IMG/VR virus record: IMGVR_UViG_3300035698_018317
Coordinates: 161,285-225,284 of that record
Length of the DNA: 64,000 bases
Strand: one strand, 5' to 3'
DNA from: a virus
The stretch's first letter is position 1, and every line of letters begins with the position of its first letter. The notes below the pieces were generated by a model. It saw only the letters and a program-made list of their open reading frames with translations, made no database searches and was not told where the DNA came from. Below are positions 10,998-36,752 of the stretch, piece by piece. The position numbers and the translations under genes are program-made.

Positions 10998-11003
10998 TTA
11001 GTC

Positions 11004-11078: not shown

Positions 11079-11093
11079 TTTAGTTGTAAAAAC

Positions 11094-11166: not shown

Positions 11167-11168
11167 TT

Positions 11169-11316
11169 GGATATTCACATGGCGGAATATATTGTTTCAT
11201 TGACCCTTGTTCTTTATAGAAATGCAAATGGAACTACAAGGCACACGCAGCTTTCTTCGGGAAGTGTGACCTCCCAGCCGAGGTCTTGTCCGTTCAATTC
11301 GGACTGTGAATATCCT
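11169..11316 (+). ncRNA. tRNA-like structured RNA with 11-bp closing stem
   Basis: An 11-bp perfect closing helix (11169-11179 with 11305-11315) is followed by one unpaired T. Directly 5' of its 3' strand is a perfect T-arm (GTCCG-TTCAATT-CGGAC, 11288-11304). Inside are a UUCG-capped hairpin (CTTTC/GGAAG with an outer CACA/TGTG), an ACCTC/GAGGT hairpin and a CCTTG/CAAGG stem. It sits in line between tRNA-Phe and tRNA-Tyr. It is too short for tmRNA and has no normal anticodon arm. A 50-codon frame (11179-11331) overlaps it but runs into the next tRNA. Confidence 0.6.
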
Positions 11317-11320
11317 AAAC

Positions 11321-11402
11321 GGCAGTATTGAGCAATTGGCTGCTCCCCAGATTGTAAATCTGGCGTCGAAAGGCATTGAAGGTTCGAGTCCTTCTGCTGC
11401 CA
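11321..11402 (+). tRNA. tRNA-Tyr (anticodon GTA)
   Basis: Acceptor GGCAGTA/TGCTGCC, anticodon arm CCAGA-TTGTAAA-TCTGG, long variable arm (type II, as in bacterial Tyr). G34 makes it a potential queuosine substrate. Confidence 0.94.
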
Positions 11403-11405
11403 GTT

Positions 11406-11636
11406 ATGAGTAAGAAAGATGAAAATAAGCGTAGAGAATACCAAATGCAGAATTATTCCGTGTATTATTTTCCTATAACAGGAGAAGTAATGTGTTGCCC
11501 AAAAAAAAGAAGTGTATTTGGCGAGTTGCACGACCACCACTATTACATAAATTATTGTACTGATTGTGGGCAGCGAGTAAAACTTTTTGTTGCTAAAAGA
11601 AAACGTGTAGTTTGTGAACGTTGTAAAAAAGATTAG
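11406..11636 (+). CDS. Small zinc-ribbon-like protein inside the tRNA array
   Basis: 76 aa (MSKKDENKRREYQMQ at the start), with the ATG four nt after the tRNA-Tyr. C-terminal Cys pairs CTDCGQ and CERCKK suggest a zinc knuckle; a CC pair and several His lie in the middle. Basic overall, so nucleic-acid binding is plausible. It is flanked on both sides by tRNA-Tyr genes and is read from the same strand. Confidence 0.65.
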   Translation: MSKKDENKRREYQMQNYSVYYFPITGEVMCCPKKRSVFGELHDHHYYINYCTDCGQRVKLFVAKRKRVVCERCKKD

Positions 11637-11644
11637 TCTATTTC

Positions 11645-11726
11645 GGCAGTATTGAGCAATTGGCCGCTCAGCGGACTGTAAATCCGCCGCCTTCGGGCAT
11701 TGAAGGTTCGAGTCCTTCTGCTGCCA
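11645..11726 (+). tRNA. tRNA-Tyr (anticodon GTA), second copy
   Basis: Same acceptor, D- and T-arms as the copy at 11321. Anticodon arm GCGGA-CTGTAAA-TCCGC differs in the stem, so the two have diverged or recombined. Type II variable arm. Confidence 0.94.
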
Positions 11727-11732
11727 TTATTA

Positions 11733-11838
11733 GCCCCCGTGACGGAATTGGCAGACGTGCGAGTTTTAAGGGTTTAAGAACCCACTAAAAGAAACTCGTG
11801 TCCATACGGGCGTACAGGTTCGAGTCCTGTCGGGGGCA
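11733..11838 (+). tRNA. tRNA-Leu with 22-nt insertion in the anticodon loop
   Basis: Acceptor GCCCCCG/CGGGGGC, the Leu-type D-arm shared with the genes at 12074 and 18886, a long variable arm and a good T-arm. Between CGAGT and ACTCG the loop is 29 nt instead of 7. The extra 22 nt fold as a GGGTT/AACCC hairpin flanked by TTTTA/TAAAA. Removing them after position 36 or 37 leaves a normal TAA (Leu) loop. The gene at 18302 carries a homologous insertion. Confidence 0.75.
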
Positions 11839-12060
11839 TTAAGATTCAAATTCTTTTTGAATCATCTCCATTACTTTGTTAAAATCTTTTTCACTAGTTG
11901 TTTTGGTTTGAACGTATTCGGCAGCTTTATCTATAGTGAGACCGCCTGTGCGAATGCTATTTACCATCTTACTAGCTAATTTATTTAAATTTAATTCACC
12001 ATAACCCCCAACAAGTGGTGGCATTAATCTTGATTCTAACCATGTGTTAAAAGTTTTCAT
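11839..12060 (-). CDS. Small protein with capsid-targeting-like N-terminus
   Basis: 73 aa from the ATG at 12060 (MKTFNTWLESRLMPP); a longer frame would run into the tRNA on the other strand. The first ten residues match the F-x-x-W-L-E motif shared by many small proteins here. The rest is a predicted helical domain (LNLNKLASKMVNSIRTGG). Lying antisense within a tRNA array is unusual and suggests a recent insertion. Function unknown; head packaging is inferred. Confidence 0.65.
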   Translation of the reverse strand: MKTFNTWLESRLMPPLVGGYGELNLNKLASKMVNSIRTGGLTIDKAAEYVQTKTTSEKDFNKVMEMIQKEFES

Positions 12061-12073
12061 AATGTATCTATTC

Positions 12074-12158
12074 GCCCTAGTGACGGAATTGGCAGACGTG
12101 CTGGCCTTAAAAGCCGGTGTCAATATATGGCGTGCAGGTTCGAGTCCTGTCTAGGGTA
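12074..12158 (+). tRNA. tRNA-Leu (anticodon TAA)
   Basis: Acceptor GCCCTAG/CTAGGGT, anticodon arm CTGGC-CTTAAAA-GCCGG, long variable arm. Serves as the uninterrupted reference for the inserted Leu tRNAs. Confidence 0.94.
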
Positions 12159-12160
12159 TT

Positions 12161-12233
12161 TTCTGGGGACGTGGTGTGCAGAATGAAGTTAGGACTACAC
12201 AAGGCTTATAGGTTCGAGTCCTATCACGGAACA
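12161..12233 (+). pseudogene. Degenerate tRNA-like remnant
   Basis: A perfect T-arm (ATAGG-TTCGAGT-CCTAT) and an imperfect acceptor (TTCTGGG with CACGGAA, one mismatch) are present, but no D- or anticodon arm folds convincingly. Best read as a decayed tRNA. Confidence 0.4.
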
Positions 12234-12238
12234 TCTCT

Positions 12239-12326
12239 GGAAAGCAGCCGAATATTGGTTTGTCGGGCTAGTTTTGAAAACTAGTTGGCCTCCGGGTCAT
12301 AAGGGTTCGATTCCTCTTGCTTTCCT
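12239..12326 (+). tRNA. tRNA-Ser (anticodon TGA)
   Basis: Acceptor GGAAAGC/GCTTTCC, anticodon arm CTAGT-TTTGAAA-ACTAG, long variable arm. Reads UCA and related codons. Confidence 0.94.
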
Positions 12327-12329
12327 TTT

Positions 12330-12418
12330 GGATGGGAGCCGAATATTGGTTTGTCGGGCTAGTTTGGAAAACTAGTTGGCCTGAAAGGGTCATTAGGGTC
12401 CAATTCCCTACTCATCCG
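12330..12418 (+). tRNA. tRNA-Ser (anticodon GGA)
   Basis: Acceptor GGATGGG/CTCATCC, anticodon arm CTAGT-TTGGAAA-ACTAG, long variable arm. The T-loop reads TCCAATT rather than TTC, an unusual change at position 55. Confidence 0.9.
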
Positions 12419-12447
12419 TTCGAATAAAAATATAAAAATTATTCGAA
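12419..12447. repeat. Inverted repeat after the tRNA array
   Basis: Perfect 9-bp inverted repeat TTCGAATAA / TTATTCGAA with an 11-nt A/T loop. It could end tRNA-array transcription or be an operator for the HNH gene at 12477. Confidence 0.4.
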
Positions 12448-12476
12448 CCTTTACTATTATATAGTGGAGGTAAAAA

Positions 12477-13037
12477 ATGAAAGAAAATATTCTTAGATTA
12501 AGAAAAGAAGGAAAATCATATGGAGAAATACAAAAAGAGCTAGGTTGTTCTAAAAGCACAATCTCATATCACTGTGGAGAAGGGCAGAGGGAAAAACAGG
12601 TTGAGAGGCAAAGGCAATTCAGAAAAAACAATGTAATTACTAGAAGAATTGGTTCGTTTACACAAAACAGACCTAAAAAAAAGAACAAACAACCTAAATT
12701 TGAAAGAAGCGTAACTCAAAAAACACAAGAAAAAAGTTATGATTTCCAACGCAAACAAAAATGTTCTAAATTTAATTTCAAAGATGTATTAGAGCATTAT
12801 GGAGAACAAACAACATGTTACTTATCTGGAAGACTTATTGATTTATCAGAACCTAGAACTTATCATTTTGACCATATAATTCCGGTTTCAAAAGGAGGAG
12901 ATTGTAGTTTTGAAAACTTAGGAATTGTTCGTAAAGAAGCAAATAGGGCTAAAAGTGACCTATTAGTAGAAGAATTTATTGAGCTTTGTAAAGACATTCT
13001 CGAATACAATGGTTATACAGTAATTAAAAACGATTAA
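12477..13037 (+). CDS. HTH-HNH homing endonuclease
   Basis: 186 aa. The N-terminal 30 residues form a helix-turn-helix (LRKEGKSYGEIQKELGCS), followed by a basic linker. The C-terminal HNH/McrA-type nuclease carries FDHIIPVSKGG and ENLGIVRKEANRAKSD. GGAGG precedes the ATG. It lies right after the tRNA array, a typical place for free-standing phage homing genes; it probably cuts an intronless allele and drives its own spread. Confidence 0.88.
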   Translation: MKENILRLRKEGKSYGEIQKELGCSKSTISYHCGEGQREKQVERQRQFRKNNVITRRIGSFTQNRPKKKNKQPKFERSVTQKTQEKSYDFQRKQKCSKFNFKDVLEHYGEQTTCYLSGRLIDLSEPRTYHFDHIIPVSKGGDCSFENLGIVRKEANRAKSDLLVEEFIELCKDILEYNGYTVIKND

Positions 13038-13065
13038 TTATCAAACTAAAACAATATATAATGTT

Positions 13066-14052
13066 ATGGGTGCTCAAACTACAGAGGGAACAGGATTTGG
13101 TTCTGCTGAAGGTCCAATTAGAGGACTAGGCGATGTAACCAAGATTCTAAAAAAGAATGCTGATGGGTCAGCATTCTCAAGTGAAGATAGCGTCATTAGA
13201 GAAACTAGTGGCGGTGATGCTGTAGATATACCTATAGACCCAATAGATGGCTTAGATGCTGAAAATGTTCAAGAAGCTTTAGAAGAACTCCAAGAAGAAG
13301 TTGAGGCTGGTGGGATTCCACCATTAGCGGAAAACATCACTGTTATACCAGTTGGAGATTTAACATCAACAAATGTACAAGATGCGTTAGAAGAACATCA
13401 GGATGACATAGATAATATCGAATCAGATGTTGCTATAAATGCATTTGATATTTTTACTAATGCCACAAATATTGATGGAAAAATAGATAAGATTTCTGCT
13501 CCGGTTACTGGGAATTTCCCATTAATTACGGCGACTGGTGAGGTGTCTAATTCTACGGTGGGTCCAGATGATTATTATACTCAGGGAGAAATAGACGCTT
13601 TAGAATACAGTCACTCTAGCTTATTAGACCTTCAAGGTGGAAGTGCTTCAGAAAGATACCATTTAACAAATGCACAACATACCAATTTAACTGATGGCGA
13701 CCCCACATTTGATACGATTGTTTTAAATGATATTATCCTTAATGACAGCCAAGCCACAACAAAAGAATATGTAGATTCTATAGTAGCTGGTTCTGGTGCT
13801 TGGTTAGACCCTGTAATTGACTTCAGTACAGAAGCAGCAGCCACAGAAACTACTGGCTTTCGCTATATTGCCTCTGCGGATGGTTCGACTTGGACAAAAG
13901 ATAATATTTATGAATATAATGGTGCATCGTGGGATGAAACAGTAATAGCTTCAGGAAATACTACTTTTGTAGAAGATTTAGGATTAGTCTACTTATTCAC
14001 TGGAACTAGTTGGGTTGATACTGGTGGAGTGTTCCAAATCATAATGACTTAG
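13066..14052 (+). CDS. Tail fibre protein, N-terminal part (frameshifted)
   Basis: 328 aa. Begins MGAQTTEGTGFGSAEG and carries tail-fibre repeats of the type LDAENVQEALEELQEE / LTSTNVQDALEEHQDD, then a LQGGSASERYHLT motif. Near 14030 the reading continues in the -1 frame: the DNA from 14034 encodes NHNDLDGLQGGSGDDTEQYH, a clear second copy of that motif, and runs open into the frame at 14193. The natural product would be a fibre of about 1150 aa. TATAAT lies 3 nt before the ATG. Confidence 0.8.
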   Translation: MGAQTTEGTGFGSAEGPIRGLGDVTKILKKNADGSAFSSEDSVIRETSGGDAVDIPIDPIDGLDAENVQEALEELQEEVEAGGIPPLAENITVIPVGDLTSTNVQDALEEHQDDIDNIESDVAINAFDIFTNATNIDGKIDKISAPVTGNFPLITATGEVSNSTVGPDDYYTQGEIDALEYSHSSLLDLQGGSASERYHLTNAQHTNLTDGDPTFDTIVLNDIILNDSQATTKEYVDSIVAGSGAWLDPVIDFSTEAAATETTGFRYIASADGSTWTKDNIYEYNGASWDETVIASGNTTFVEDLGLVYLFTGTSWVDTGGVFQIIMT

Positions 14053-14192
14053 ATGGTCTTCAAGGAGGTTCTGGAGACGATACAGAACAGTATCACTTAA
14101 CACAAGCAGCACATGACATAGCAGAAACATTCAATGTAAGTACTCCATCTAATTTTGATAAATTAGTATACGATAGCGGGTCAAGCGAATGG

Positions 14193-16511
14193 GTGAATGA
14201 TAATCCAGACGAAATTTATCATAAATCTTCTGATGAAATATTGACAGAAACTCATGGTATTTTCTTTGTAAATGCCTCTGGAGGGGATGTCACACTGACT
14301 ATAGCTGACAGTGCTCTAAATAATAACAATTCTGGAATAATGAGATTTTATAAGTCATCGAATGATGAATTTGAAGTCATTATTGTAACTTCTGGTGGGC
14401 AAAACATTGGCACTGATACATCCCAAACCATTTGGAAAATTGATGAAGGATTTTCTTGCATTAGTGATTATAATGGAGGTGTAAATTCTGGATGGAGGAT
14501 TGTTCAAGATAGCAGAACATTCACAGGTCAAGTTTCTAAAATTTTCCAAGTAGCTACTCAAGGAGCCGAATACACATCTGTAGTCGATGCTATTGCTGAT
14601 ATTAACCTTATTGGGGATGCATCTGCTACTATTAAGTATGTTATTGATGTGGCACCCGGAATCTATACAGAAGACCCATTTGTTGTGCCTGATTATGTTT
14701 CTATAATGGGTAAAAACGATGAAGCTACATTTATAAAAACAAATGATAATACTGTAACGTTTATTGAATTAGGTCATAATTCTGTTCTTTACAACCTTAG
14801 AGTAGATGGTGACTCACCTGTTACAAATGCGGTAGTTAGCGTATATTGTACTGATGAATCTGAATTGGTTAGAGTTGTTTTTCAAAACTCAGGAACATGT
14901 GTAAAAACAGTAAGTGGATTTACAACTGTTGAGTCTTGTAAGTTTAAGGATAGTTGTAATATAGGAATTGAGGTCACTGGTGGTATTGTAGGGTCAACGA
15001 GCCTATTTTCAGAAGTTTCAGATATATTCCTCTATGCAAATGGCGGCCTTCTTGTTGCCAACAACATGTTTAGTTCCAATGCCACAACCCATTTATACGC
15101 AAATAATGGTGGAACTTTACAACCAAATTTAATTAATTGTGAATTTGGAACAAATGTGTTGAGAACTGGAACAACTGGTGTAAACACAATTACAGGCTCT
15201 AATATTCATGGCGAAAGCTCTCAAACATGGCATGTTTTGCAAGAAGCCGCATCTGGAGAGATGCATCTAACTGCAAATTTATTGTTAGCGACGAAAATTT
15301 CTATGGTAAGTCCTGAAAATATCACTATTGATTTCAATAGTGAGTTAGAAGGAGATGAAGGCCATGTGTTTTATGAAGAGCTTCAAGTAGGGGCACCAGA
15401 AAAAGGCAGAGAATCTGTATTTGGTGAGGGAGATAGTTACACTCGTGGAATGTTGGTATATACCGAAACGGCAGGCGGTGTATTTGTCGATGAATCTGAA
15501 GCCGCAGCGAGTGCTTCTGGCTCAACTTTTGAATTCACGGGTGTTGCTGCCGACAACGCAATCTATGTTTCTTCAGATTTGCAAGACGTAACAGACTACA
15601 AACAATTTTTAGGAATTAAAGCTAGTATTATTGTTGCAGCAACAGGAACGGGAGAAATAGTAACCGAATATTGGGATGGTTCAAGTTGGACGGAATTTAA
15701 TAATATGTCAGCGGAAGCTGATGTCCCTTACACTCAACATGCAAATAACATATTTGAGCGTACAGGTTCAGAGCAAATTAGATTTCAAGATATATCTTTA
15801 TCTTCGGCAACATGGACAAAAAATGACCCATTAACACTTGGCGACCCCAATCAGGGAACTAATAGATTTTGGGTTAGGTTCAGAATAGATTCACTGCTAA
15901 TTACAGCTCCAATATTTCAGCAATTCAAAGTCCATAGCAATAGAACCGAAATTAATGCTGATGGATTTGTTGAATATATGGGAGGGGCAAGAAAAAGAAT
16001 CAGCATTGAAGGAATTAATTTAGGAAACACATTTGAAATTGATGGGTTTGCTCCTAAAGACAATACTGTTGATTTCGGTCCCACAATCAATCTTAAAGTT
16101 AAGAAAAATAAATTTGAAGATACCAAACTAGACGGTTTTGGACAAGCGATTGCAGTGCCAGATGGTTTGGATACTTCTATGCCATTAAGATATGTAGTTC
16201 GATGGTCGCTAAATTCCGATGAACCGTCTGGTGATGTTGCATTGGATTTTGTATACGGACAAGCACAAGTAGGCACGATATTAGATGGCACTAATACAGA
16301 AGTTATAATCACCGACATTACCACTACTGTAGCAAATACAGCCGATGAAATTTATGAGACTGTATACTCATTCTCTATCACAAGCTCGCTGCCTGAAGAC
16401 GGATTATTTATAGTTCTTAAAAGAGATGCAGATGGAGGTGCTACTGGAGATACTTATGGTGGTGATGTATATATTGTAAATACTGAGTTGCTTGGGTATT
16501 TTTGGCATTAA
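14193..16511 (+). CDS. Tail fibre protein, C-terminal part with beta-helix
   Basis: 772 aa counted from an in-frame GTG at 14193, but the open frame begins at 14034 and joins the upstream gene by a -1 shift. Residues about 100-330 look like a pectin-lyase-type right-handed beta-helix (IMGKNDEATFIKTNDNTVTF and following turns). The later part is beta-rich with a terminal jelly-roll-like region. Probably the receptor-binding or depolymerase part of a fibre. No ribosome-binding site supports separate translation from 14193. Confidence 0.75.
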   Translation: MNDNPDEIYHKSSDEILTETHGIFFVNASGGDVTLTIADSALNNNNSGIMRFYKSSNDEFEVIIVTSGGQNIGTDTSQTIWKIDEGFSCISDYNGGVNSGWRIVQDSRTFTGQVSKIFQVATQGAEYTSVVDAIADINLIGDASATIKYVIDVAPGIYTEDPFVVPDYVSIMGKNDEATFIKTNDNTVTFIELGHNSVLYNLRVDGDSPVTNAVVSVYCTDESELVRVVFQNSGTCVKTVSGFTTVESCKFKDSCNIGIEVTGGIVGSTSLFSEVSDIFLYANGGLLVANNMFSSNATTHLYANNGGTLQPNLINCEFGTNVLRTGTTGVNTITGSNIHGESSQTWHVLQEAASGEMHLTANLLLATKISMVSPENITIDFNSELEGDEGHVFYEELQVGAPEKGRESVFGEGDSYTRGMLVYTETAGGVFVDESEAAASASGSTFEFTGVAADNAIYVSSDLQDVTDYKQFLGIKASIIVAATGTGEIVTEYWDGSSWTEFNNMSAEADVPYTQHANNIFERTGSEQIRFQDISLSSATWTKNDPLTLGDPNQGTNRFWVRFRIDSLLITAPIFQQFKVHSNRTEINADGFVEYMGGARKRISIEGINLGNTFEIDGFAPKDNTVDFGPTINLKVKKNKFEDTKLDGFGQAIAVPDGLDTSMPLRYVVRWSLNSDEPSGDVALDFVYGQAQVGTILDGTNTEVIITDITTTVANTADEIYETVYSFSITSSLPEDGLFIVLKRDADGGATGDTYGGDVYIVNTELLGYFWH

Positions 16512-16534
16512 AATTATTTTACTATATTAAATAC

Positions 16535-17080
16535 ATGAAATACAAGTGTTCAATATATAAAGAAGAGCCGGAACACTGCCGAGATTACCCATGGAACGAG
16601 GCAAATGACCTTTTTCCTAGTTGTATTTTCTACAATGCAGAAACAGACACAATAATTACAGAAGAAACAGTCTTGGAAACAAAAACAAAAGAAGAGCTTC
16701 AAGAATACTGCATTAGTTGTGGAAAATGTTGTTTTTATTGGGAAGATGGTAAACCAGTAATTCCTTGTTCGGCATTAGAAATCACAGAAGATGTAATAAG
16801 TGAGGAAGTGATAAGAGCCGAAATAAAGTCACAAAACTTGTCAGATGGGTCATTTATACAATGGAAATATGCAGATACAAAAATGTTAGTCGGTTATTTT
16901 GATGGCTTGCATTCTTTTCGTGCGACGTTTAACCCAGCCACTTTAGAGTGGGATGCGATGCGACGAATTACGGCTGACTTTGCAAAAATGAGTGGACATA
17001 AGATTCTTGCAGAAGCGATGGTTGCATGTGAGGTTGAAGCTTATCATAGGCAAAAAAGACGCTGTTTTATAATGAGCTAG
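16535..17080 (+). CDS. Cys-rich protein resembling a permuted YkgJ (CxxCxxCC) family member
   Basis: 181 aa from the ATG at 16535, with TATATT ending 6 nt upstream. The N-terminus has CSIYKEEPEHCRDYPW, like the C-terminal C-x-Y-x-x-x-P-x-x-C-R-x-P block of YkgJ/UPF0153 metal-binding proteins. The block CISCGKCCFYW, normally first in that family, comes after it, followed by CSAL. The order is thus reversed. A C-terminal helical domain follows. Iron or zinc binding is inferred. Confidence 0.6.
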   Translation: MKYKCSIYKEEPEHCRDYPWNEANDLFPSCIFYNAETDTIITEETVLETKTKEELQEYCISCGKCCFYWEDGKPVIPCSALEITEDVISEEVIRAEIKSQNLSDGSFIQWKYADTKMLVGYFDGLHSFRATFNPATLEWDAMRRITADFAKMSGHKILAEAMVACEVEAYHRQKRRCFIMS

Positions 17081-17624
17081 TTATCTCATCGACCATATGG
17101 CCTAGTTTTTCAACTGACATTTTAAGTGATTCATTTCGGAAAGCATTTGTCATGTTTGGGAAATCTTGGACACTTTCTTCCATGGCAAGTGTCAACATAA
17201 TTACAGCATCATAAGTGGCAATCGCAATGCTTCGAATTGGCTCTTCTTTTGTTTCTATGTTAGATTTTTTTTGTATTGCCGTGTCTCTTAGCTTCTTGGA
17301 TGTCTGCCTGATACTTTCAACAGATTTTTCTTTATAAGGATGGTTTTCCCAAACTCGTGTTGTGTATAGTTCTTTAGAGTATTCTCGGATTACCTTTCGA
17401 ATAATACCCATCTCTTCAGATATGTGCCCTAATTCGTATCGCAAACCATTATCACCTAATGCTTTTCCAAGAGACCCTAAAATACAATGAGCAGCTTCAG
17501 CAAAACTCTGAGCACCTATTTCGTATTCTGTATTTGACTCATAACCACCTGCGTCGGGTAAGCCGCCATATGCTTGCGTGGCGATAGGACATGCTTCTTG
17601 AATTAACCAATTTTTGAAGTTCAT
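17067..17624 (-). CDS. Hypothetical protein with capsid-targeting-like N-terminus
   Basis: 185 aa from the ATG at 17624 (MNFKNWLIQEACPIATQAYGG). The start matches the F-K-x-W-L-x-x-E motif found in many genes here; an upstream ATG at 17657 is less likely because it would bury the motif. The remainder is mostly helical and charged with no recognised domain. Converges with the gene at 16535, overlapping its end by 14 bp. Confidence 0.65.
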   Translation of the reverse strand: MNFKNWLIQEACPIATQAYGGLPDAGGYESNTEYEIGAQSFAEAAHCILGSLGKALGDNGLRYELGHISEEMGIIRKVIREYSKELYTTRVWENHPYKEKSVESIRQTSKKLRDTAIQKKSNIETKEEPIRSIAIATYDAVIMLTLAMEESVQDFPNMTNAFRNESLKMSVEKLGHMVDEITSSL

Positions 17625-17658
17625 AAAATTATATATACAGTTTGTGCTCAAAAACAAG

Positions 17659-17682
17659 CGAGAGTGGTGGAATTGGCAGACA
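17659..17682 (+). pseudogene. Truncated tRNA-Leu relic
   Basis: GCGAGAGTGGTGGAATTGGC and the next few bases match the acceptor and D-arm start of a Leu tRNA (compare GTGACGGAATTGGCAGACG at 11740), but the anticodon, variable and T-arms are missing. The HNH gene starts 43 bp later, so the tRNA was probably broken by its arrival. Confidence 0.5.
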
Positions 17683-17725
17683 ATATTTTATAAAAAAAAT
17701 TACACCACGCTAACTATTATATTAT

Positions 17726-18235
17726 ATGCCAATATGTAAAAAATGTAATAAAGAATTTCCAAGTAGGATAGGTAATAAAACTTATCATAAAAGAAGTTAT
17801 TGTTTAAAATGTTCTCCTCCGGGTTCCGGTATGGGGTATGAAATAAGAAAGGCCACTAGAAAAAAAGAAAAAGTAAAAGGAAAAAAAGAATGCCCTATTT
17901 GCGGGAAATTTTCGACTTGGACTAAAAATAATGTTTGTTCAACATGTCGGATGATGTGGCAGAGATGGAAAACAAAAAAAAGAGCGGTAGATATGAAAGG
18001 CGGCAAATGCTGCAAGTGTGGAGAAACAGATATGCGGGTTTTAACCTTCCACCATCTTAATGTGGAGGACAAAGAATATAATATTTCCAATTTCTACTCA
18101 AGAATTTGTTGGGAGAAAATAGTTTTAGAAATAGAAAAATGTGATTTAATGTGTTTTAATTGTCATGTGAGATTACATTCCGAAATCAATAGAGCCAAGT
18201 ATTCTTGCATAGAACAATACTATGCTATGACCTAA
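17726..18235 (+). CDS. Zinc-finger HNH endonuclease
   Basis: 169 aa. Two Cys-pair zinc modules (CKKCNKEF ... CLKC and CPICGKFS ... CSTC) precede an HNH-type core with CCKCGE, LTFHHLN and CDLMCFNCHVRLHSE. TATTAT ends 5 nt before the ATG, so it is probably leaderless. It sits between a tRNA relic and an intact tRNA, typical of a mobile homing gene. Confidence 0.85.
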   Translation: MPICKKCNKEFPSRIGNKTYHKRSYCLKCSPPGSGMGYEIRKATRKKEKVKGKKECPICGKFSTWTKNNVCSTCRMMWQRWKTKKRAVDMKGGKCCKCGETDMRVLTFHHLNVEDKEYNISNFYSRICWEKIVLEIEKCDLMCFNCHVRLHSEINRAKYSCIEQYYAMT

Positions 18236-18301
18236 TCTATCTTCACTTTCTCTCAGAAAAAGACTTTCATTTTTGGGTTTATGCCCTATAATGACAGTTC
18301 A

Positions 18302-18407
18302 GGCTGAATGACGGAATTGGCAGACGTGCGAGCTTTTAGGGTTTGAAAACCCATTAAAAGGTGCTCGTGTCCTTCGGGGCGTGTGGGTTCGAATCCCTCT
18401 TTGGCCA
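18302..18407 (+). tRNA. tRNA-Leu-like with 22-nt anticodon-loop insertion (second case)
   Basis: Acceptor GGCTGAA/TTTGGCC, Leu-type D-arm and long variable arm. The anticodon stem CGAGC/GCTCG encloses a 29-nt loop with a GGGTTT/AAACCC hairpin and TTTTA/TAAAA flanks, homologous to the insertion at 11733. Reading the loop by position gives TTA after removing 22 nt, which would pair with UAA; a Leu anticodon would require a one-base offset. Identity is open. Confidence 0.65.
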
Positions 18408-18421
18408 GTAAGGAAATTGTT

Positions 18422-18880
18422 ATGTGGCGTGAAGAATACGACGAATACGATGATGATGGCTATCCTTATTATTATCATGATGGCCTTGGTTGTCGTTGTT
18501 ATAAATATGACAGACCTCCTTATAATAAAAATTATAACGTGCCGTCTCATATTCATATAATGAACAAGAATGAGGCGAAAGTAATGCGTCGTCTCAAAAA
18601 TGAAACTGGTTTATCTGAAGAGGGTATTCGAAAGATTAAGAAATATCGAATTATGCTTTCTGAAGCTCAAAAAGAAGGGCAAAAAGCCAAACGGACAAGG
18701 GTGCAAAAAGCTAGAGATGAAGTAATGAAATGCGTTTGTCGTAAGCTTAAATTAGCCAAAGAACATCCTGTTACACAGAAAGCATATCGTGAAGAATGGG
18801 AACGGCGGCGAAAGGAATATGATAATCGTCCTTGTTGTAATAGTAGTATTTATCTAGAATCACCAAAGGATGATAGATAA
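18422..18880 (+). CDS. Hypothetical charged protein
   Basis: 152 aa from the ATG at 18422, 14 bp after the tRNA. The N-terminus is Tyr/Asp-rich (YDEYDDDGYPYYYHDG), followed by a long basic helical region with Cys pairs (CVCRKLK, CC near the end). Expressed within the tRNA cluster on the same strand. Family not recognised. Confidence 0.6.
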   Translation: MWREEYDEYDDDGYPYYYHDGLGCRCYKYDRPPYNKNYNVPSHIHIMNKNEAKVMRRLKNETGLSEEGIRKIKKYRIMLSEAQKEGQKAKRTRVQKARDEVMKCVCRKLKLAKEHPVTQKAYREEWERRRKEYDNRPCCNSSIYLESPKDDR

Positions 18881-18885
18881 AATCC

Positions 18886-18969
18886 AGCCTCGTGACGGAA
18901 TTGGCAGACGTTCGGGACTTAAAATCCCGTGCCCTTCGGGGCGTGTGGGTTCGAGTCCCACCGAGGCTA
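18886..18969 (+). tRNA. tRNA-Leu (anticodon TAA)
   Basis: Acceptor AGCCTCG/CGAGGCT, anticodon arm CGGGA-CTTAAAA-TCCCG, long variable arm, T-arm GTGGG-TTCGAGT-CCCAC. Confidence 0.94.
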
Positions 18970-18983
18970 TTTAGAAATAATCA

Positions 18984-19067
18984 GGCCGAGTGACGGAACT
19001 GGCAGACGTGCGGGGTTCAAATTCCCGTGTCCGAAAGGGCGTGTGGGTTCGAGTCCCACCTCGGCCA
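18984..19067 (+). tRNA. tRNA-Leu (anticodon CAA)
   Basis: Acceptor GGCCGAG/CTCGGCC, anticodon arm CGGGG-TTCAAAT-TCCCG, long variable arm. Reads UUG. Confidence 0.94.
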
Positions 19068-22643: not shown

Positions 22644-22659
22644 TAAATTAATTGCTTAG

Positions 22660-22690
22660 AAAAAGGTGTCACAATTTGTGGCACCTTTTT
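22660..22690 (+). terminator. Intrinsic terminator
   Basis: 14-bp stem AAAAAGGTGTCACA / TGTGGCACCTTTTT with one G-U pair and a 3-nt loop, ending in T. Closes the phosphoesterase transcript. Confidence 0.9.
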
Positions 22691-22705
22691 CTATATTATA
22701 GTAAC

Positions 22706-24040
22706 ATGTTTATTCCAGATAAATTTCACTTCATATACCTTAATGAAGGAGCGGGAGCAAAACCGTTTAGTCTAGTTCATTATGTTTCTATTAAATCAGC
22801 AATAGAGGTCAACAATCCTGATTCTGTAACCTTATATTATTCTAAAGAGCCTGATTCTTTCTGGTGGGATAAAATCAAAGGTCAAGTAAATTTAGAAAAA
22901 GTAGTACCGCCTAATAGTGTTTTTGGTAGACCAATAACTCATGTGGCTCACAAAGCTGATGTATTAAGACTTGAAAAACTAATTAAGCATGGGGGGATTT
23001 ATTTAGATATAGATATAGTTTGTTTAAAACCATTTAAAGATTTATTGAATAACAAAGTAGTTCTTGGTAGAGAAAAAAAGCAACAGATTTGTAATGGCGT
23101 CATTATGGCCAAAAAAAACTCCGCATTTCTTAAGGAATGGTATCAACTTTACAGGAGTTTTGATGACACACAATGGTCAACACATTCAGGTTATCTTTCA
23201 ACTCGATTAGCTCAATTCAACCCCTCAGTACGGTTAGAACCACCAGAGTCATTCTTTATTCCAAGTTATCGTAGACTTCCTGCCTTATTCAAAAGAAATC
23301 AAAACTTTCCACAAGCATACTGTTATCATCTATGGGAAAAATTGTCTTGGAATTTCATAAAACAATTAACAGTCTCAAAGATTAGAAAAGAAGATACAAC
23401 ATTTAATGTGGTGGCAAGAAAATATTTATCTGATATAGTAATTCCACCATCGGAGGATAAGTCTAAGCATAAACATAAAGTAATATGGAGAAAATATCCT
23501 ATATTTATACATACGCCGAAAACAGCAGGCACTTCTATGGCGAAGATTTTGAAGAATAATAAGATTCGTCATTTCTGGCACAAGCCTGCTAAAGAATTAT
23601 TAAGAGGCAATCCTTTTTCTTTCGCATTCGTAAGAAATCCTTACGATAGATTTGTAAGTGCTTATCAATTTGTAAAAGATGGAATAGTTGACCCTGTACA
23701 GAATAAAAGTGTTTTTAAAATCATAAAGAAATGTGGTGATTTTGAAACGTTCTGTATGGATTTTAAAAATTATCCAGTTTGTACAAACCATGTAATTTTT
23801 GAACCACAATACAAATTCCTATGTGATAAAGAAAAAATTATAGTTGATTTTATAGGCCGATATGAGAATCTACATGAAGATTGGTTTAAGTTGCTTAAAA
23901 AGCTTAAAATAAAAGATACTCCACTTCCTATGTTAAGAAAGAGTAAAAGAACCTCAGATTATATGTCGTACTATACAGAAGATGCCAAACAAGCTATAGG
24001 TGAATATTATAAAAAGGATTTCGAAATATTTGGATATTAA
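22706..24040 (+). CDS. Fused glycosyltransferase-sulfotransferase
   Basis: 444 aa. Residues 1-210 are a DXD-type glycosyltransferase (GT32-like): HKADVLRLEKLIKHGGIYL followed by DID at 101-103. Residues about 260-444 are a Golgi-type sulfotransferase: the 5'-PSB loop HTPKTAGTS (269-277) and 3'-phosphate motif FVRNPYDRFVSAY (308-320). The product may add a sugar and sulfate it. TATTAT ends 6 nt before the ATG, implying a leaderless mRNA. First gene of a surface-glycan cassette. Confidence 0.85.
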   Translation: MFIPDKFHFIYLNEGAGAKPFSLVHYVSIKSAIEVNNPDSVTLYYSKEPDSFWWDKIKGQVNLEKVVPPNSVFGRPITHVAHKADVLRLEKLIKHGGIYLDIDIVCLKPFKDLLNNKVVLGREKKQQICNGVIMAKKNSAFLKEWYQLYRSFDDTQWSTHSGYLSTRLAQFNPSVRLEPPESFFIPSYRRLPALFKRNQNFPQAYCYHLWEKLSWNFIKQLTVSKIRKEDTTFNVVARKYLSDIVIPPSEDKSKHKHKVIWRKYPIFIHTPKTAGTSMAKILKNNKIRHFWHKPAKELLRGNPFSFAFVRNPYDRFVSAYQFVKDGIVDPVQNKSVFKIIKKCGDFETFCMDFKNYPVCTNHVIFEPQYKFLCDKEKIIVDFIGRYENLHEDWFKLLKKLKIKDTPLPMLRKSKRTSDYMSYYTEDAKQAIGEYYKKDFEIFGY

Positions 24041-24701
24041 AATAATACATCTTCTTTCGTATCCTAAAGAGGAAAGAGAAATTAATTCTATTTCCTCAAT
24101 AAGTAAATTGGATATTCCTTATACTCAACACGTAAACACTGTGTTCACAGGTAAACCTCCTGAGAGTAAATGGCCGTGTGAAAATTCCATAAGGGAGACA
24201 TCATACGGATGTTACGATTCTCATAAAAAAGCTCTTGGTGAATTTAATACAGATTATCTTTTAGTCTGTGAGTGTGATTGTATTATCTCAATTCCTCCTA
24301 GCCAATTTCTTGAAATATTACCATTTTATATCAAAGATATGGAAGAGAATAATATTGCTTGTTTAGGGATTGGCTCTTTTTGTAATACGATAAAAAAAGA
24401 AACTAAAGAATTGTATATTTGTGAGAAAATGGCCTGTACTCAATGTTTGCTATACTCGTCTGAATATAAAGAAATGATAAACCAAGATGAAGATTGGCAA
24501 CCATATGACAGTTGGTTGAGTCGAATTTTAGGAGAAAAAGGAAAATTAGCTGTTGTAAAACAACGTACAACGCATCAACATATTGGTCGTTCATTGATAG
24601 ATGGATTAGATAAAAGAATGGCGAAAAGAGTAGATTCTAATGGCACAGAAGATATATTTACCATATGGTCAGATGGCATGATATACAATGCTACTTTTTA
24701 A
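24030..24701 (+). CDS. Putative glycosyltransferase
   Basis: About 223 aa; the start is taken as TTG at 24030 with AAGGA upstream (a GTG at 24000 is the alternative). It overlaps the preceding gene by a few bases. The protein begins like a nucleotide-sugar enzyme (IKIIHLLSYPKEEREIN) and has an acidic CECDCI segment that could play the DXD role, followed by a GIGSF loop. The C-terminal half has a conserved-looking HQHIGRS. Exact family is uncertain. Confidence 0.6.
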   Translation: MDIKIIHLLSYPKEEREINSISSISKLDIPYTQHVNTVFTGKPPESKWPCENSIRETSYGCYDSHKKALGEFNTDYLLVCECDCIISIPPSQFLEILPFYIKDMEENNIACLGIGSFCNTIKKETKELYICEKMACTQCLLYSSEYKEMINQDEDWQPYDSWLSRILGEKGKLAVVKQRTTHQHIGRSLIDGLDKRMAKRVDSNGTEDIFTIWSDGMIYNATF

Positions 24702-24708
24702 GTTTCAT

Positions 24709-25854
24709 TTATTGTATTGTAATGGGCAGTTTTTTTGATTGGTAAAAAGGAATGGGAGGTGTTCTACGGTATTCAAACCTATTCTGTTGGCTTTTTCTTA
24801 CACACATATCAAATAACTCCAAGTCGATATCTTGTAAGACAGCACAATATTTTTTTGTTCCCTTTGGGCATTTATCTAAAGGAAGTGGAGAAACGATACC
24901 ACATGGCTTATGTTGACAAAATCCACTACCAAACATGAAGGTGGGAATTTTATATTTATGAGCGATATATTTAGGAGGAAGAGTGGACATAATACCTACA
25001 GAAGGAATTCTAAATGCTTCTCCAAGATGTACTCCAGCAGAATCAGGAGACACAATAAATTCTGCATTAAACGCTAAAGAGAATACGTCTATTGCTTCTG
25101 TTTTTCCAGAAAGATTTTTTACCCCTTCTATTTCTTCCAGTCTATCTAAACAATTATAACGTCCGTAAACATAAACCTTTACACCATATTGTTTTAATAT
25201 ATGTTTAATTAATTTTATGTTTGTTTTAGGAGGAAGATTTTTGCAATTCCCACTTGAATGCCACTGTAGTAGGACATATTTATCGTTTTTATCTATACCA
25301 AGTCTTTCGTAATAATCTTTATTTGGATATAATATTTCTTCATTTGTGAAAGCCCCAAAATCAGGAAGACCTTCATATTCCATACCCACAGTATTATACA
25401 GACGTTGTATAATACTTTGATTATCTACCCATGACCTATCCGCTCTGTCTTTTTCCGTCCAAAAAAACATAGCAGGTATTTTGTGTGTAAATGTGTCAAA
25501 TTCTTCTTTTGTGATATATGGTTCTCTAAGATTTATACTTGAAGGAAGAAAATTAGAATAGAATTTATTTATAGGAGGAGTAGAACACACATCTAATCTA
25601 CATCTCATTCTACTTTTAATCCTATATATATCTCTTAAATAAGTGATAAGCCAGATTGAATCACCCATGCCAAGAGTGGCATCGCCTTGCATCATATACA
25701 CAGCCGATTCTTCTGGGCTTATACGGTTTCCGCTGTATACTTCGATATCATAATCAGGAGCTACTTCACTAACTGCGTTTTGGGGTAATGAGCGAGGCTT
25801 ACCCCAAGTTACGTATTTTTTTTTGTCTTGTTTTCTTGTCCATGTCCAAAACAT
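24709..25854 (-). CDS. GT9-like (heptosyltransferase-type) glycosyltransferase
   Basis: 381 aa with a GT-B architecture. The C-terminal half has VLLQWHSSGNCKNLPP and the nucleotide-sugar site VSPDSAGVHLGEAFRIPSVGI, typical of ADP-heptose:LPS heptosyltransferases. The N-terminal domain has GDSIWLITYLRDI. A Cys-rich C-terminal segment (CQHKPCG ... CPKGTKKYC) is unusual. Adjacent to two sulfotransferase domains, so a role in a sulfated glycan is plausible. Confidence 0.75.
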   Translation of the reverse strand: MFWTWTRKQDKKKYVTWGKPRSLPQNAVSEVAPDYDIEVYSGNRISPEESAVYMMQGDATLGMGDSIWLITYLRDIYRIKSRMRCRLDVCSTPPINKFYSNFLPSSINLREPYITKEEFDTFTHKIPAMFFWTEKDRADRSWVDNQSIIQRLYNTVGMEYEGLPDFGAFTNEEILYPNKDYYERLGIDKNDKYVLLQWHSSGNCKNLPPKTNIKLIKHILKQYGVKVYVYGRYNCLDRLEEIEGVKNLSGKTEAIDVFSLAFNAEFIVSPDSAGVHLGEAFRIPSVGIMSTLPPKYIAHKYKIPTFMFGSGFCQHKPCGIVSPLPLDKCPKGTKKYCAVLQDIDLELFDMCVRKSQQNRFEYRRTPPIPFYQSKKLPITIQ

Positions 25855-25857
25855 AAA

Positions 25858-26862
25858 TTACTTTGCTTTCTTTTTAGAAGTTTTCTTTTTGGGAGTTTTC
25901 TTTTTATTTTCTAAGACATTATCGCTTATACACTTCTCTTTTGCAACAGATTCCTCTATACTATTAGAAAGTTCATCAATAATTTCGTTCTCAATTTCAT
26001 TTTCATCAGGTCGTGTTGGTGCATCCGCTGTGAAAGAACGTGCAGTAAATGAAATTTCTGGATAGTAAGCTTCGTAATACCATTTATTTCGATTCACAAT
26101 GGAGGTTATAATGCGTGGAGAAAGTTTTCTGAGTTCTGGCTTCTCCAATTTAGATTTGATTTTATGCATGTACTTCATACGATAGAATGAGTCGGCTTCT
26201 GGAATCGTTGTTTGTTCAATGTTATCAAAGTCTATCTTTTGAGTTTTAACTCCTATCCATGTGAACAACTCATCCATAGTTTTTTGCGGGTCGCTTAGGA
26301 AATCTTCATATCTCCAAAAATATATGTTTCGCATTATATCAGGAATATCACCAAGATTATAAATGGCCTTTAATGGACCACCTATAACTCCATTATCATC
26401 AAACATTGCCCCAGCCCTCTTATCTACTATATGCTGTTCACAATGGTCTGGGAAATCTAGAAGAAGTGTTTCTTTATGTCTTTTTTCTATACTAGAAAAT
26501 ACACCTCTTAAATCTCTGAGACATACTATCATTTTAAAATTAGGATAAAGGTGTTGTAATGTGGGAGCACTATGACACCATCCTCTATTTTTATCTATAG
26601 TAATAGGAGTATTTGTATCTGAAGACCATTCTCCCATAAACGCTTTAAGAGACCGCTTTAGACGTTTGTAGACAACTTCAAAATTAGAATCTAATTGGGT
26701 TAAAAGAAAAGGGTCATCACTCCAAATTCTTCTTAGTTGATTAATTAATCCACATAAAGGAGAAGATGGAGTAGATGAAATTTCCGAATGTTTATCCAGT
26801 AAATTGCAAAGTAGTGTTGAGCCGCTTCGTGGAAGGCCCGATAAATATATTATTTCTTTCAT
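25858..26862 (-). CDS. Sulfotransferase with Lys-rich tail
   Basis: 334 aa. PAPS 5'-phosphosulfate loop GLPRSGSTLLCNLLDKH at residues 9-25 and a 3'-phosphate-type motif (CLRDLRGVFSSIEKR). The last 75 residues are low-complexity: acidic, then Lys-rich (KKKTPKKKTSKKKAK), not part of the fold. Its GAGG ribosome-binding site lies inside the arm of the hairpin at 26865-26904. Transfers sulfate from PAPS to an unknown acceptor. Confidence 0.85.
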   Translation of the reverse strand: MKEIIYLSGLPRSGSTLLCNLLDKHSEISSTPSSPLCGLINQLRRIWSDDPFLLTQLDSNFEVVYKRLKRSLKAFMGEWSSDTNTPITIDKNRGWCHSAPTLQHLYPNFKMIVCLRDLRGVFSSIEKRHKETLLLDFPDHCEQHIVDKRAGAMFDDNGVIGGPLKAIYNLGDIPDIMRNIYFWRYEDFLSDPQKTMDELFTWIGVKTQKIDFDNIEQTTIPEADSFYRMKYMHKIKSKLEKPELRKLSPRIITSIVNRNKWYYEAYYPEISFTARSFTADAPTRPDENEIENEIIDELSNSIEESVAKEKCISDNVLENKKKTPKKKTSKKKAK

Positions 26863-28486: not shown

Positions 28487-28634
28487 ACAGTCAAGATGCT
28501 CAGCCGTGTAATAAATAAAGCGTTTTCTTTTAGAAGACCAAAAGAGGCCCAACACGAACGGGCATGGGTGACTGAAAATTAAAACGGGCCTCTTATGCAG
28601 CAGATGAGTTAAATCCTTATCTGCTGCACTTTTT
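28487..28634 (+). ncRNA. Candidate small RNA
   Basis: About 150 nt with its own promoter and a terminator (10-bp stem TGCAGCAGAT / ATCTGCTGCA at 28596-28628, then CTTTTT). Upstream an 8-bp stem AGAGGCCC/GGGCCTCT encloses a 35-nt loop containing AACACGAACGGG. No reading frame is apparent. Antisense overlap with the gene at 28633 is only a few bases. Confidence 0.6.
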
Positions 28635-29631
28635 AAGCTACTTGGGTTTTTTCTGGGTTTCCAAAAAACCCAATATCCCAATAAATAGCATGAAGAATAT
28701 CTAGAAGGGTGAAATCTTTAAAGCAATCAATAAATACTTTAGAGTTTTTAGCGAATTTAATAGAGAATTGATGATTTACAATAATGGGGATATGAACTAA
28801 TTCATTCATAGGTGTCATTGTAACACTGTGTTGTTCTGTGTTGGGTATTTCCGTCGAGGAGACCTCTCCTACACCGAAAAATTTACTTAAGATATAGAAT
28901 TTTTTATTATCAAGTTCTCCCTGTGAACTTACTTGTAGATATTCGATATCAGTAGAAAGTTTTTTAGGTCTTATTTTGGCTGCTTTATGAAAAGCTGAAA
29001 TATCGCAAGATGAATATTTACTCATGAAATCTTTTAGTATTTCATTACTGTTGACAAATCTGAAGATATCTCCCAGAGTGGTGCCTCCAATAATTTTACA
29101 TTTGGACATCAGGCACTTAATCACATCGTCAGATGGAACCATATGGTATTTTTCATCTATAAAACCATTTCTTGTAAGATAGCCACAAGAAAAATCAGAT
29201 TTAGCGTCGGCAAACAAAATATCAATAATTTCAAGGAGGGTCCATCTCATAGAAGCAGGAAGTGGAGTTTTATCTTTGTTTTTTATTTTTATTTCATTTT
29301 TTAATATAAGTGGTTTATCTGTTAGGTCTTTTGAAGTGGAGGAAGCGGGGCTTATATTAAGATTGTCATGTTTTAAAGTTATATTTCTTGAAATAAGAAT
29401 AGGTGGTAAAATAAACAGATGGTGTGGGTAGCAGGCTTCTACAAAACACTTAAGAGAATCATTTTTTGAAATGATTCTCAATAAGTCTTCCCATGTTACC
29501 CCACTGTCAATCGTACAAGATGCACGAAGATAGGGCCACACATCTTCTATTTTTGTTCGTAAAAAGCTATTAGTTCCTTGAATCGGTTTCTTACAACGAA
29601 TATCTGTCTTTGTTATTTCAATGTGATTCAT
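28633..29631 (-). CDS. Hypothetical protein with internal T-L-x-D-I repeats
   Basis: 332 aa. Four diverged copies of a helical motif can be seen: TWEDLLRIISKNDSLKCF, TLLEIIDILFAD, TLGDIFRFVNSNEILKDF and TLLDILHAIYWDIGF. This looks like a repeated ligand- or DNA-binding domain. The ATG overlaps the last bases of the RNase P RNA P1 helix, so the mRNA and RNA come from the same transcript or compete. Function unknown. Confidence 0.7.
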   Translation of the reverse strand: MNHIEITKTDIRCKKPIQGTNSFLRTKIEDVWPYLRASCTIDSGVTWEDLLRIISKNDSLKCFVEACYPHHLFILPPILISRNITLKHDNLNISPASSTSKDLTDKPLILKNEIKIKNKDKTPLPASMRWTLLEIIDILFADAKSDFSCGYLTRNGFIDEKYHMVPSDDVIKCLMSKCKIIGGTTLGDIFRFVNSNEILKDFMSKYSSCDISAFHKAAKIRPKKLSTDIEYLQVSSQGELDNKKFYILSKFFGVGEVSSTEIPNTEQHSVTMTPMNELVHIPIIVNHQFSIKFAKNSKVFIDCFKDFTLLDILHAIYWDIGFFGNPEKTQVA

Positions 29632-29858
29632 AGTATTCCAGTAAGCGGGATTCTGTTTTATGACTGCATTTATCTCACCTTACGGTGGCGGCTCATGCCG
29701 CTGCCACTACCCGACCATTATAGTGCTGCTCACCCACTAGGTCTGTACGTGTTGCATTCTCGGTGGTGCAAATGGACATAAGCCCTCCCACCTTAAGCAG
29801 AAATGTCCTGACTTTCCTCTGTTTTAAAAATCAAAACAGCGCAGTCTCAGAACACTAT
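29630..29858 (-). ncRNA. rnpB: RNase P RNA (phage-encoded)
   Basis: Catalytic RNA of RNase P, which trims tRNA 5' ends. Conserved core elements are visible on the minus strand: GAGGAAAGTC (29810-29819, P4 5' side and J3/4), AGATAAATG, and ACAGAATCCCGCTTA (29642-29656, CR-V and P4 3' side). P1 pairs 29848-29858 with 29630-29640 (11 bp). P3 is a CTGTTTT/AAAACAG hairpin (29819-29839), and P5 pairs GGACAT with ATGTCC. At about 230 nt it is much shorter than bacterial RNAs, so it is a minimal form. It sits between YqeY and an unknown gene. Confidence 0.88.
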
Positions 29859-29861
29859 AAA

Positions 29862-30299
29862 TCACATTCTAATTTCTTTAACAATATCAGTAACTATTTT
29901 GCCATCAGCTTTTTTGCCAGTACTTTTTAGAGCCTTCATAGCAAGTCCTGTTGCTTGACCATCTGAGCGGCAATCTTTTATATCTGTCATATGTGGATAA
30001 AGAAAGTGTATTATTTCTTCTTTTTCCATCATAGCTGGAAGGAAGGTAGTGAGAATTTCATTTTCTCTTTTTATAGCGTCTAGTTTCTCTTGAGCATGAG
30101 TATGTTCGATATTAGCTTCATTTAAAACGATTATTTTCCGAATAATTCTTTGTTCGTCTTCTTCGGAAATCCCATTTTTAGCCCTACTCTGAGCCGCCTG
30201 TATTTCACTGGCTGCATATTTCAGGACATCCCTAGCAAACGTATCTCCCGACTTCATTGCTTGGGTAATTTGTTCTCGTATTGTATTAGATAAACTCAT
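29862..30299 (-). CDS. YqeY/GatB-C-terminal-domain-like protein
   Basis: 145 aa, the full length of bacterial YqeY. Features in order: helical N-terminus (SNTIREQITQAMKSGD), SEIQAAQSR, ISEEDEQRIIRKII, FLPAMMEKEEI and a C-terminal MKALKSTGKKADGKIVTDIV block. YqeY is related to the tRNA-binding tail of the GatB amidotransferase subunit, so tRNA binding is plausible. Its stop lies four bases from the RNase P RNA P1 helix, a telling RNA-related neighbourhood. Confidence 0.85.
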   Translation of the reverse strand: MSLSNTIREQITQAMKSGDTFARDVLKYAASEIQAAQSRAKNGISEEDEQRIIRKIIVLNEANIEHTHAQEKLDAIKRENEILTTFLPAMMEKEEIIHFLYPHMTDIKDCRSDGQATGLAMKALKSTGKKADGKIVTDIVKEIRM

Positions 30300-35939: not shown

Positions 35940-36752
35940 TTATACGAAACGTAAAGGTAATGGTAGTTTTTTCCCATATGGCATAAAAATGGCATCTATT
36001 ACATGGGTGGGTGATAATGTTTTAATTAAACTATTAAAATCTATTTCGGTCCAAACACATCCGCCTTTAAATGTACGAGCATAATAAATGACTTCATAAC
36101 CAAATGACATGATTTGATATAAAGTTCTTTTGATGTTTTCACCCGTATTGGTGCGACATGCATTACAATTTAATTCGATAAATAGAATTGGGCATTCATC
36201 AAAAATTTTCATACCACCTCTTAAGACGAATTTTTCCACACCTTCTACATCCATTTTTACAACATCTATATGAGGAAGTTTTAGGTTGTCTAGCTTTTTT
36301 ACTTCGATATCGGTTTTTATAGCATCAGATTCATGATGATTAACAGTAGTAAAATGGCTTTGTCCGGGGTGTGAGGGAAGATGACAAAATACTCTAGTTT
36401 CATCTTGGTCCCACAAACCTATGTTGTGACAAGTGATGTTATCACATTTATTTAATTCAATAGTTTTCAATAAATGTTTAAAGTTTTCTTTACTGGGTTC
36501 GATTGCAATAACTTCTTTGGCTAATTTAGATGCGAATACACTGTGTATTCCAACATTAGCTCCGATATCTAAAAACACATCATCTGAACTAAGAATTTTT
36601 TCTAAAGCACCTTGGACATGAGGTTCCCACTGCTGGTGCATGTCTAATGCTTGTTCTATATAACCGTCATTTTCGTCAAATCCTGAGATAGAAAGACAAT
36701 CCACACCCATTCTTTCTCTTAATTTTTTTGGGATTTGTAGTTTCCTAATCAT
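35940..36752 (-). CDS. FkbM-family methyltransferase
   Basis: 270 aa. SAM motif I FLDIGANVGIHSVFASKLA, acidic motif VIAIEPSKEN, then VVKMDVEGVEKFVLRGG and LFIELN, all classic for FkbM enzymes. These usually O-methylate sugars of surface glycans, fitting the nearby glycan genes. The C-terminal region with Cys may be a lid. Confidence 0.87.
   Translation of the reverse strand: MIRKLQIPKKLRERMGVDCLSISGFDENDGYIEQALDMHQQWEPHVQGALEKILSSDDVFLDIGANVGIHSVFASKLAKEVIAIEPSKENFKHLLKTIELNKCDNITCHNIGLWDQDETRVFCHLPSHPGQSHFTTVNHHESDAIKTDIEVKKLDNLKLPHIDVVKMDVEGVEKFVLRGGMKIFDECPILFIELNCNACRTNTGENIKRTLYQIMSFGYEVIYYARTFKGGCVWTEIDFNSLIKTLSPTHVIDAIFMPYGKKLPLPLRFV

Follow-up and report, generated by a model that had tools for sequence, protein, structure and literature searches.

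A bacterial-type RNase P RNA stripped of most of its specificity domain in a phage record, and its relatives in viral contigs

RNase P RNA is regarded as a cellular housekeeping ribozyme, and every cell finishes its tRNAs with RNase P. Here, we describe an RNase P RNA of the bacterial type encoded in a phage record, on the minus strand at positions 29866-29622 of the window (the whole stretch of 64,000 nt analysed, positions 161,285 to 225,284 of IMG/VR record IMGVR_UViG_3300035698_018317). The RNA is about 245 nt long from P1 to P1 and has kept the catalytic (C) domain, namely P1-P7 including the P6 pseudoknot, P15-P17, CR-I, CR-IV and CR-V, the bulged U of P4 and the GGU of L15, while the specificity domain (P8-P14 with CR-II and CR-III) has shrunk to a P7 stub and a short hairpin. 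More than 25 contigs in IMG/VR carry related, reduced RNAs.

A preliminary description of this DNA had placed a minimal RNase P RNA of about 230 nt, with a P1 of 11 bp, between YqeY and an unknown gene, and the three core motifs it named on the minus strand, GAGGAAAGTC (29819-29810), AGATAAATG (29675-29667) and ACAGAATCCCGCTTA (29656-29642), are all present. The search with bacterial covariance models that it proposed gave a match, with RF00010 aligning to 29858-29626 (minus strand) at E=9.5e-19 (701 bases searched) or 7.2e-20 when the whole 225-kb record was searched. The alignment takes in the full model (positions 1-367), with about 110 model positions replaced by approximately 12 nt between the P7 strands. 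However, the score of 62.9 bits is under the Rfam gathering score for RF00010 of 100 bits and a default Rfam scan therefore misses this RNA; tRNAs were the sole entries when the window was scanned in this way. The best clan model was the bacterial and not the archaeal one, and the folding energy of the RNA gave a z of -4.96 relative to 200 shuffles. A covariance model (R1) trained on 15 sequences, 14 viral and one from a MAG contig, scored 158.5 bits, though the window RNA is one of the training members. Because P1 can be extended to 17 bp (including two G-U pairs), the RNA spans 29866-29622; hence, the RNA and its P1 helix stand as first described, but the length of the helix and the extent of the RNA have been corrected. 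Class B RNase P RNA, tmRNA and a chance match to the motifs were also considered and rejected. The loss of the specificity domain and the wide viral spread of the RNA class go beyond the original claims. The relevant features, in window coordinates, are as follows.

29862-30299, minus strand: YqeY-like protein, upstream neighbour (PF09424, E 8.1e-14)
29850-29866, minus strand: P1 5′ strand, 17 bp with 29622-29638, two of them G-U; overlaps the YqeY stop codon (sequence and MFE)
29841-29846, minus strand: P2 5′ strand, partner 29667-29662 (sequence, RF00010 alignment)
29819-29839, minus strand: P3 hairpin, 29839-29833 with 29825-29819 (RF00010 alignment and fold)
29810-29819, minus strand: CR-I, GAGGAAAGUC; the bulged U of P4 is 29811
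29806-29814, minus strand: P4 5′ strand, partner 29650-29643 (covariation in relatives)
29802-29805, minus strand: P5 5′ strand, partner 29758-29755 (covariation)
29794-29800, minus strand: P6 pseudoknot 5′ strand, CUGCUUA (covariation)
29762-29792, minus strand: P7 (29792-29788 with 29766-29762) around a short hairpin, the remnant of the specificity domain
29726-29732, minus strand: P6 pseudoknot 3′ strand, UGAGCAG (covariation and out-of-sample check)
29705-29751, minus strand: P15, P16 and P17, with the L15 GGU at 29711-29709 (alignment of relatives)
29676-29701, minus strand: two hairpins at the P18 position, missing from many relatives
29667-29675, minus strand: AGAUAAAUG, conserved single strand 5′ of the P2 3′ strand (RF00010 alignment, relatives)
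29643-29656, minus strand: CR-V ACAGAA and P4 3′ strand (29650-29643) (RF00010 alignment, covariation)
29622-29638, minus strand: P1 3′ strand, which holds the ATG (29631-29629) of the 332-aa ORF (sequence and ORF list)
28633-29631, minus strand: 332-aa ORF, downstream neighbour, function not assigned (ORF list)
10584-12419, plus strand: tRNA cluster 1, candidate substrates, CCA not encoded
18302-19067, plus strand: tRNA cluster 2, containing two Leu tRNAs plus another Rfam match

In bacterial RNase P, the GGU of L15 is the motif that binds the 3′ CCA of the tRNA. This GGU and the GCAA of CR-IV/J5-15 are invariant or nearly invariant columns in alignment A1. The missing CR-II and CR-III are the contacts to the D- and T-loops of the tRNA (PMC4919922) and, as they have gone together with P8-P14, the window RNA is without the domain that contacts these loops.

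The window record (225,284 bp) is that of a phage, as it includes a large terminase together with UvsX, SbcCD, a DnaB-like helicase, the large ribonucleotide reductase, gp32 and a family A DNA polymerase (PolA). Its terminase shares 51 % identity over 92 % coverage with that of the 595-kb metagenomic phage LR756511. The presence of these genes and the RF00010 match support the earlier claim of a minimal RNase P RNA in a phage. The location was also correctly described, as the RNA lies between these two genes, with the stop codon of the YqeY-like gene inside one strand of P1 and the ATG of the 332-aa ORF inside the opposite strand. No protein relatives of the 332-aa ORF product were found in IMG/VR and the phage collection, and tblastn of the YqeY-like protein against phages gave no match. 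A scan for promoters and terminators gave no more matches than expected by chance, and none was assignable to the gene for the RNA. Elsewhere in the window are sulfotransferase-like proteins (22652-26862) and an FkbM methyltransferase (35940-36752).

A search of IMG/VR with a pattern based on CR-V and P4 returned 41 loci and, when these were examined with RF00010, many were of normal size and above the threshold and about an equal number were short (approximately 155-280 nt) and below it. A pattern based on the P6 strand was found in 15 IMG/VR contigs versus one contig among 84,980 prokaryote species. This lone cellular occurrence (L051) comes from a Planctomycetia MAG, where it is on a contig of 6.8 kb that has three tRNAs. 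A search of this MAG with RF00010 gave no further match, and the ORFs in L051 had no match in PHROG. The pattern occurs in only one of the 149 genomes of the class and, as the other 148 have no match, a planctomycete origin is unsupported and L051 is probably a stray phage contig. A terminase was found in 13 of 32 relatives, most of which are metagenomic contigs. The preliminary description had also called for a search for a phage homologue of RnpA; none (PF00825) was found in the window record (G000) or in the 32 viral relatives, many of them fragments, using a search that detected PF00825 in ten of 14 control genomes. This fits with the use of the host protein. When five of the viral RNAs were used in blastn searches of phages, only short chance matches were seen, and the match in Atu_ph04 was without RNase P features on inspection. 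Viral contigs L005, L006, L016, L032 and L036 have RNase P RNAs of full size that score above the Rfam cut-off, some of them adjoining tRNAs, and these could be unreduced ancestors or host contamination. In addition, two phages with an RNA of this class have a tRNA called as Pyl, its anticodon being CUA (L023, 3246-3318, and L044, 11986-12057), and UAG recoding in these phages is possible.

The pairings were examined across relatives using 18 distinct RNAs of the window class (17 viral and the one from the Planctomycetia MAG contig), segmented by anchors, in a swap test where each strand was matched with its own or with foreign partners. Pairing with own versus foreign partners was 0.993 versus 0.897 for P4, 1.00 versus 0.76 for P5, 0.98 versus 0.92 for P6, 0.96 versus 0.75 for P7 and 1.00 versus 0.67 for P15, with a permutation p of ~5e-5 for each. 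In an alignment of 15 sequences, 95.5 % of cells are paired and both sides have changed in 20 of the 36 pairs; the covariation score was 0.491, compared to 0.163 for shuffled alignments (none of 500 reached it) and to no more than 0.087 when the partners were slid. All four P5 pairs in this alignment have changed on both sides and are 100 % paired, and P6 is 99 % paired with changes on both sides in three pairs. RNAalifold, when no structure was given, recovered P4, P5, P7, P15, P16 and P17 but not P6. In several members, the pair adjoining the bulged U of P4 has changed from G-C to C-G, and one member has U-G there; at the next variable P4 pair, A-U and G-C alternate. Formation of P4, the failure of which in relatives had been named as one of the refuting outcomes, is thus seen with compensatory changes, and the catalytic core (P4, the bulged U and GGU) is under visible selection in the relatives. 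P4 is nearly invariant in cellular RNAs whereas in this viral class it varies with compensation.

The smallest relatives are reduced still further, with the whole RNA approximately 150-165 nt. In L007, L021, L025, L038 and L042, the distance from CR-I to CR-V is just 80-82 nt, P7 has also been lost and the loop of P5 is itself the P6 strand, and the P6 pairings in these smallest forms include GUUGAG/CUCAAC, GGUAG/CUACC and GGCAG/CUGCC.

R1 also found the RNA in five of six huge-phage records (484-735 kb), none in the training set, with E values from 1e-15 to 1e-26. The scores were 132.6 bits for LR756501 (735 kb), 121.8 bits for both LR756511 (595 kb) and LR756502 (642 kb), 98.6 bits for LR745206 (634 kb) and 79.5 bits for LR756508 (484 kb). 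There was no match in LR756504 (636 kb) nor in ten other large phage records, mostly of cultured phages and including G, Atu_ph07, KVP40, CcrColossus and SCTP-2. RF00010 alone had no match in 16 large phage records but, because R1 matches three of the 16, this negative result is a matter of sensitivity. Likewise, L082 and L083 matched none of the RNase P families at E<0.1 with cmscan, and the archaeal model was matched, weakly, by L084 only. With curated thresholds, RNAs of this kind go unseen in huge-phage genomes that have been published. In the huge phages P4 has been rewritten yet pairs around the bulged U, e.g. AGU(U)CGCGA opposite UCGCGGCU. P6 pairs in these RNAs as well, although R1 did not include it. 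P5 as first assigned in the 595-kb phage is incompletely paired. In the 735-kb phage (L082), the gene immediately upstream of this RNA, at 1717-2745, encodes an RNA ligase (PF09414 with PF21189), which is a possible tRNA repair partner. In the 484-kb phage (L090), a TnpB/Cas12f-like protein (8-1099) is upstream and a tRNA-Ser lies 18 nt past the RNA core.

Among the relatives, 196 of 197 tRNAs found within 3 kb are on the same strand as the RNase P RNA (a few near-duplicate contigs included). With the nearest duplicates removed, the conserved GCUUA is followed at 14-36 nt by the start of a tRNA in 14 of 31 loci, whereas an abutting tRNA is expected from the tRNA density in 0.81 loci, and none of 200,000 simulations reached 14. 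This gap is mostly taken up by the 3′ strand of P1 and, as the tRNA follows directly, an RNase P cut at the tRNA would define the 3′ end of the ribozyme itself. Short distances to a tRNA are also seen for a few of the full-size RNAs in viral contigs (23 nt in L016 and 369 nt in L005), which suggests that the viral RNAs arose by capture followed by reduction.

The window copy does not have the abutting arrangement; the nearest tRNA is 10 kb away, on the opposite strand. The tRNAs are confined to the window part of the record (the rest was searched with ARAGORN only) and consist of 11 ARAGORN calls and 11 Rfam tRNA matches in two clusters (10.6-12.4 and 18.3-19.1 kb). As none has an encoded CCA, the conserved GGU would act only once CCA has been added. 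The 11 ARAGORN calls (10584-19067) are for Ser (5), Leu (3), Tyr (2) and Phe (1). Rfam matches without an ARAGORN call are at 10834, 11004, 11733 and 18302, and two of these (11733-11838 and 18302-18407) are both 106 nt long. A queuosine salvage protein (PF10343), related to tRNA modification, is at 62409-63245.

The preliminary description had suggested that the phage either brings its own tRNA processing or redirects the protein subunit of the host, and the tight linkage to tRNA arrays in the relatives leads us to favour the first. On the evidence of sequence and structure, it is likely that the viral RNAs are C-domain-only RNase P RNAs of type A ancestry that mature phage tRNAs, probably with the RnpA protein of the host. 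The RNA would be co-transcribed with phage genes, usually inside a tRNA polycistron, would bind host RnpA and would remove the 5′ leaders from phage pre-tRNAs, recognizing mainly the acceptor end via P15/L15, J5/15 and P4 and not the T-loop. Where a tRNA directly follows, cleavage of its leader would free the 3′ end of the ribozyme just past P1. The benefit to the phage may be a tRNA maturation that is independent of, or outlasts, the host RNase P RNA. A catalytic domain alone is able to cleave pre-tRNA with or without RnpA, at a lower rate and affinity (PMC4919922). A bolder version, which we put forward only tentatively, is that phages have evolved a distinct C-domain-only class of RNase P RNA, down to approximately 155 nt, which lies immediately upstream of a pre-tRNA and, by cleaving at the 5′ end of the tRNA, matures both itself and the array. 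It would act in cis at first and in trans afterwards, and might have no protein of its own; if true, this would be a natural ribozyme-substrate tandem in phages.

Other roles for the RNA appear unlikely. One is that it is a decoy that ties up host RnpA, starving the host RNase P and stopping host tRNA production without cleaving anything. Retention of the protein-binding C-domain, loss of the substrate-recognition domain and the lack of a phage RnpA would suit a decoy, but it would have no need of P4, the bulged U and the substrate motif GGU, all under visible selection, and the placement inside tRNA arrays also argues against it. It is similarly improbable that an active RNase P of altered specificity acts mainly on phage RNAs other than tRNAs, be they mRNAs, small RNAs or its own precursor. 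Loss of the specificity domain does take away the T-loop contact, the window copy is in an mRNA-type operon running from YqeY to the 332-aa ORF, and L011, L018 and L028 have no tRNA in the flanking DNA examined; however, most loci with enough flank have tRNA neighbours on the same strand.

For the window copy, there is also a small chance that it is the decaying relic of a functional ancestral gene, as tRNA adjacency has been lost and the sole P4 mismatch among the 18 window-class RNAs (A29809-C29647) is found in it. Against this, all of the other helices pair, P1 is 17 bp, the R1 score is like those of intact relatives (with the window RNA in the training set), a wobble pair is possible between A and C and a single metagenomic record may contain an error. 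Finally, though the contigs are mostly metagenomic and the one Planctomycetia MAG has no other RF00010 match, it is hardly credible that these are RNase P genes of an unsampled bacterial lineage on contigs mis-assigned as viral, given the terminases in the relatives, the RNAs in 484-735 kb phage records, the absence of RnpA from every record and of the RNA from the 148 other genomes of the MAG's class, and for the window record itself this origin is contradicted by its phage hallmarks. We retain tRNA maturation by a reduced RNase P RNA as the preferred reading, and for phages with large tRNA arrays the class points to a possible means of processing these tRNAs.

Searches of an open-access library gave no earlier report of an RNase P RNA encoded by a phage, and the papers on jumbo phages in it, including the Al-Shayeb study, do not mention RNase P, though priority is unproven. 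We regard the RNA as a known ribozyme in a new structural form, encoded by genomes of a type for which no report was found, and the domain-stripped viral class provides natural answers to what a catalytic core needs. With bacterial class A RNA (RF00010) the window RNA shares the C-domain topology of P1-P7 and P15-P17, the P6 pseudoknot, CR-I, CR-IV, CR-V, the bulged U and the L15 GGU, but the viral RNAs lack P8-P14 and CR-II/III, are smaller (about 245 nt in the window and about 155 nt in the smallest), fall below the Rfam threshold and are phage-encoded in tRNA arrays; no RnpA was found in the window record and a host protein could serve. The diverged RNase P RNAs of CPR bacteria also have below-threshold scores and missing helices, P12 being among those missing in two genomes, but they are cellular and have mostly lost the UGG motif that the viral RNAs keep, and a C-domain-only form is not described in the portion of that source drawn on here (PMC8172020). 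The yeast mitochondrial RPM1 likewise lies between tRNAs in one transcription unit (fMet-RPM1-Pro) but is mitochondrial, belongs to an unrelated sequence class and is in pieces in its mature form (PMC3797045). The theta ribozymes of gut phages are phage ribozymes that are associated with tRNAs and have been proposed to process them, but they are HDV-like, self-cleaving and proposed to act on 3′ trailers, and are not RNase P (PMC10879173). The archaeal minimal RNase P RNA of Pyrobaculum and the Thermoproteaceae, named type T (PMC7191817) or type P (PMC4919922), has, like the window RNA, kept the C-domain and lost nearly all of the specificity domain. However, the window RNA is viral, matches the bacterial model and keeps P6, P15-P17 and GGU of the bacterial type and, judged by these features, its reduction is separate from the archaeal one. 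The archaeal C-domain-only RNAs are nonetheless the nearest known RNAs and, for the association of a phage ribozyme with tRNAs, the theta ribozymes are the nearest.
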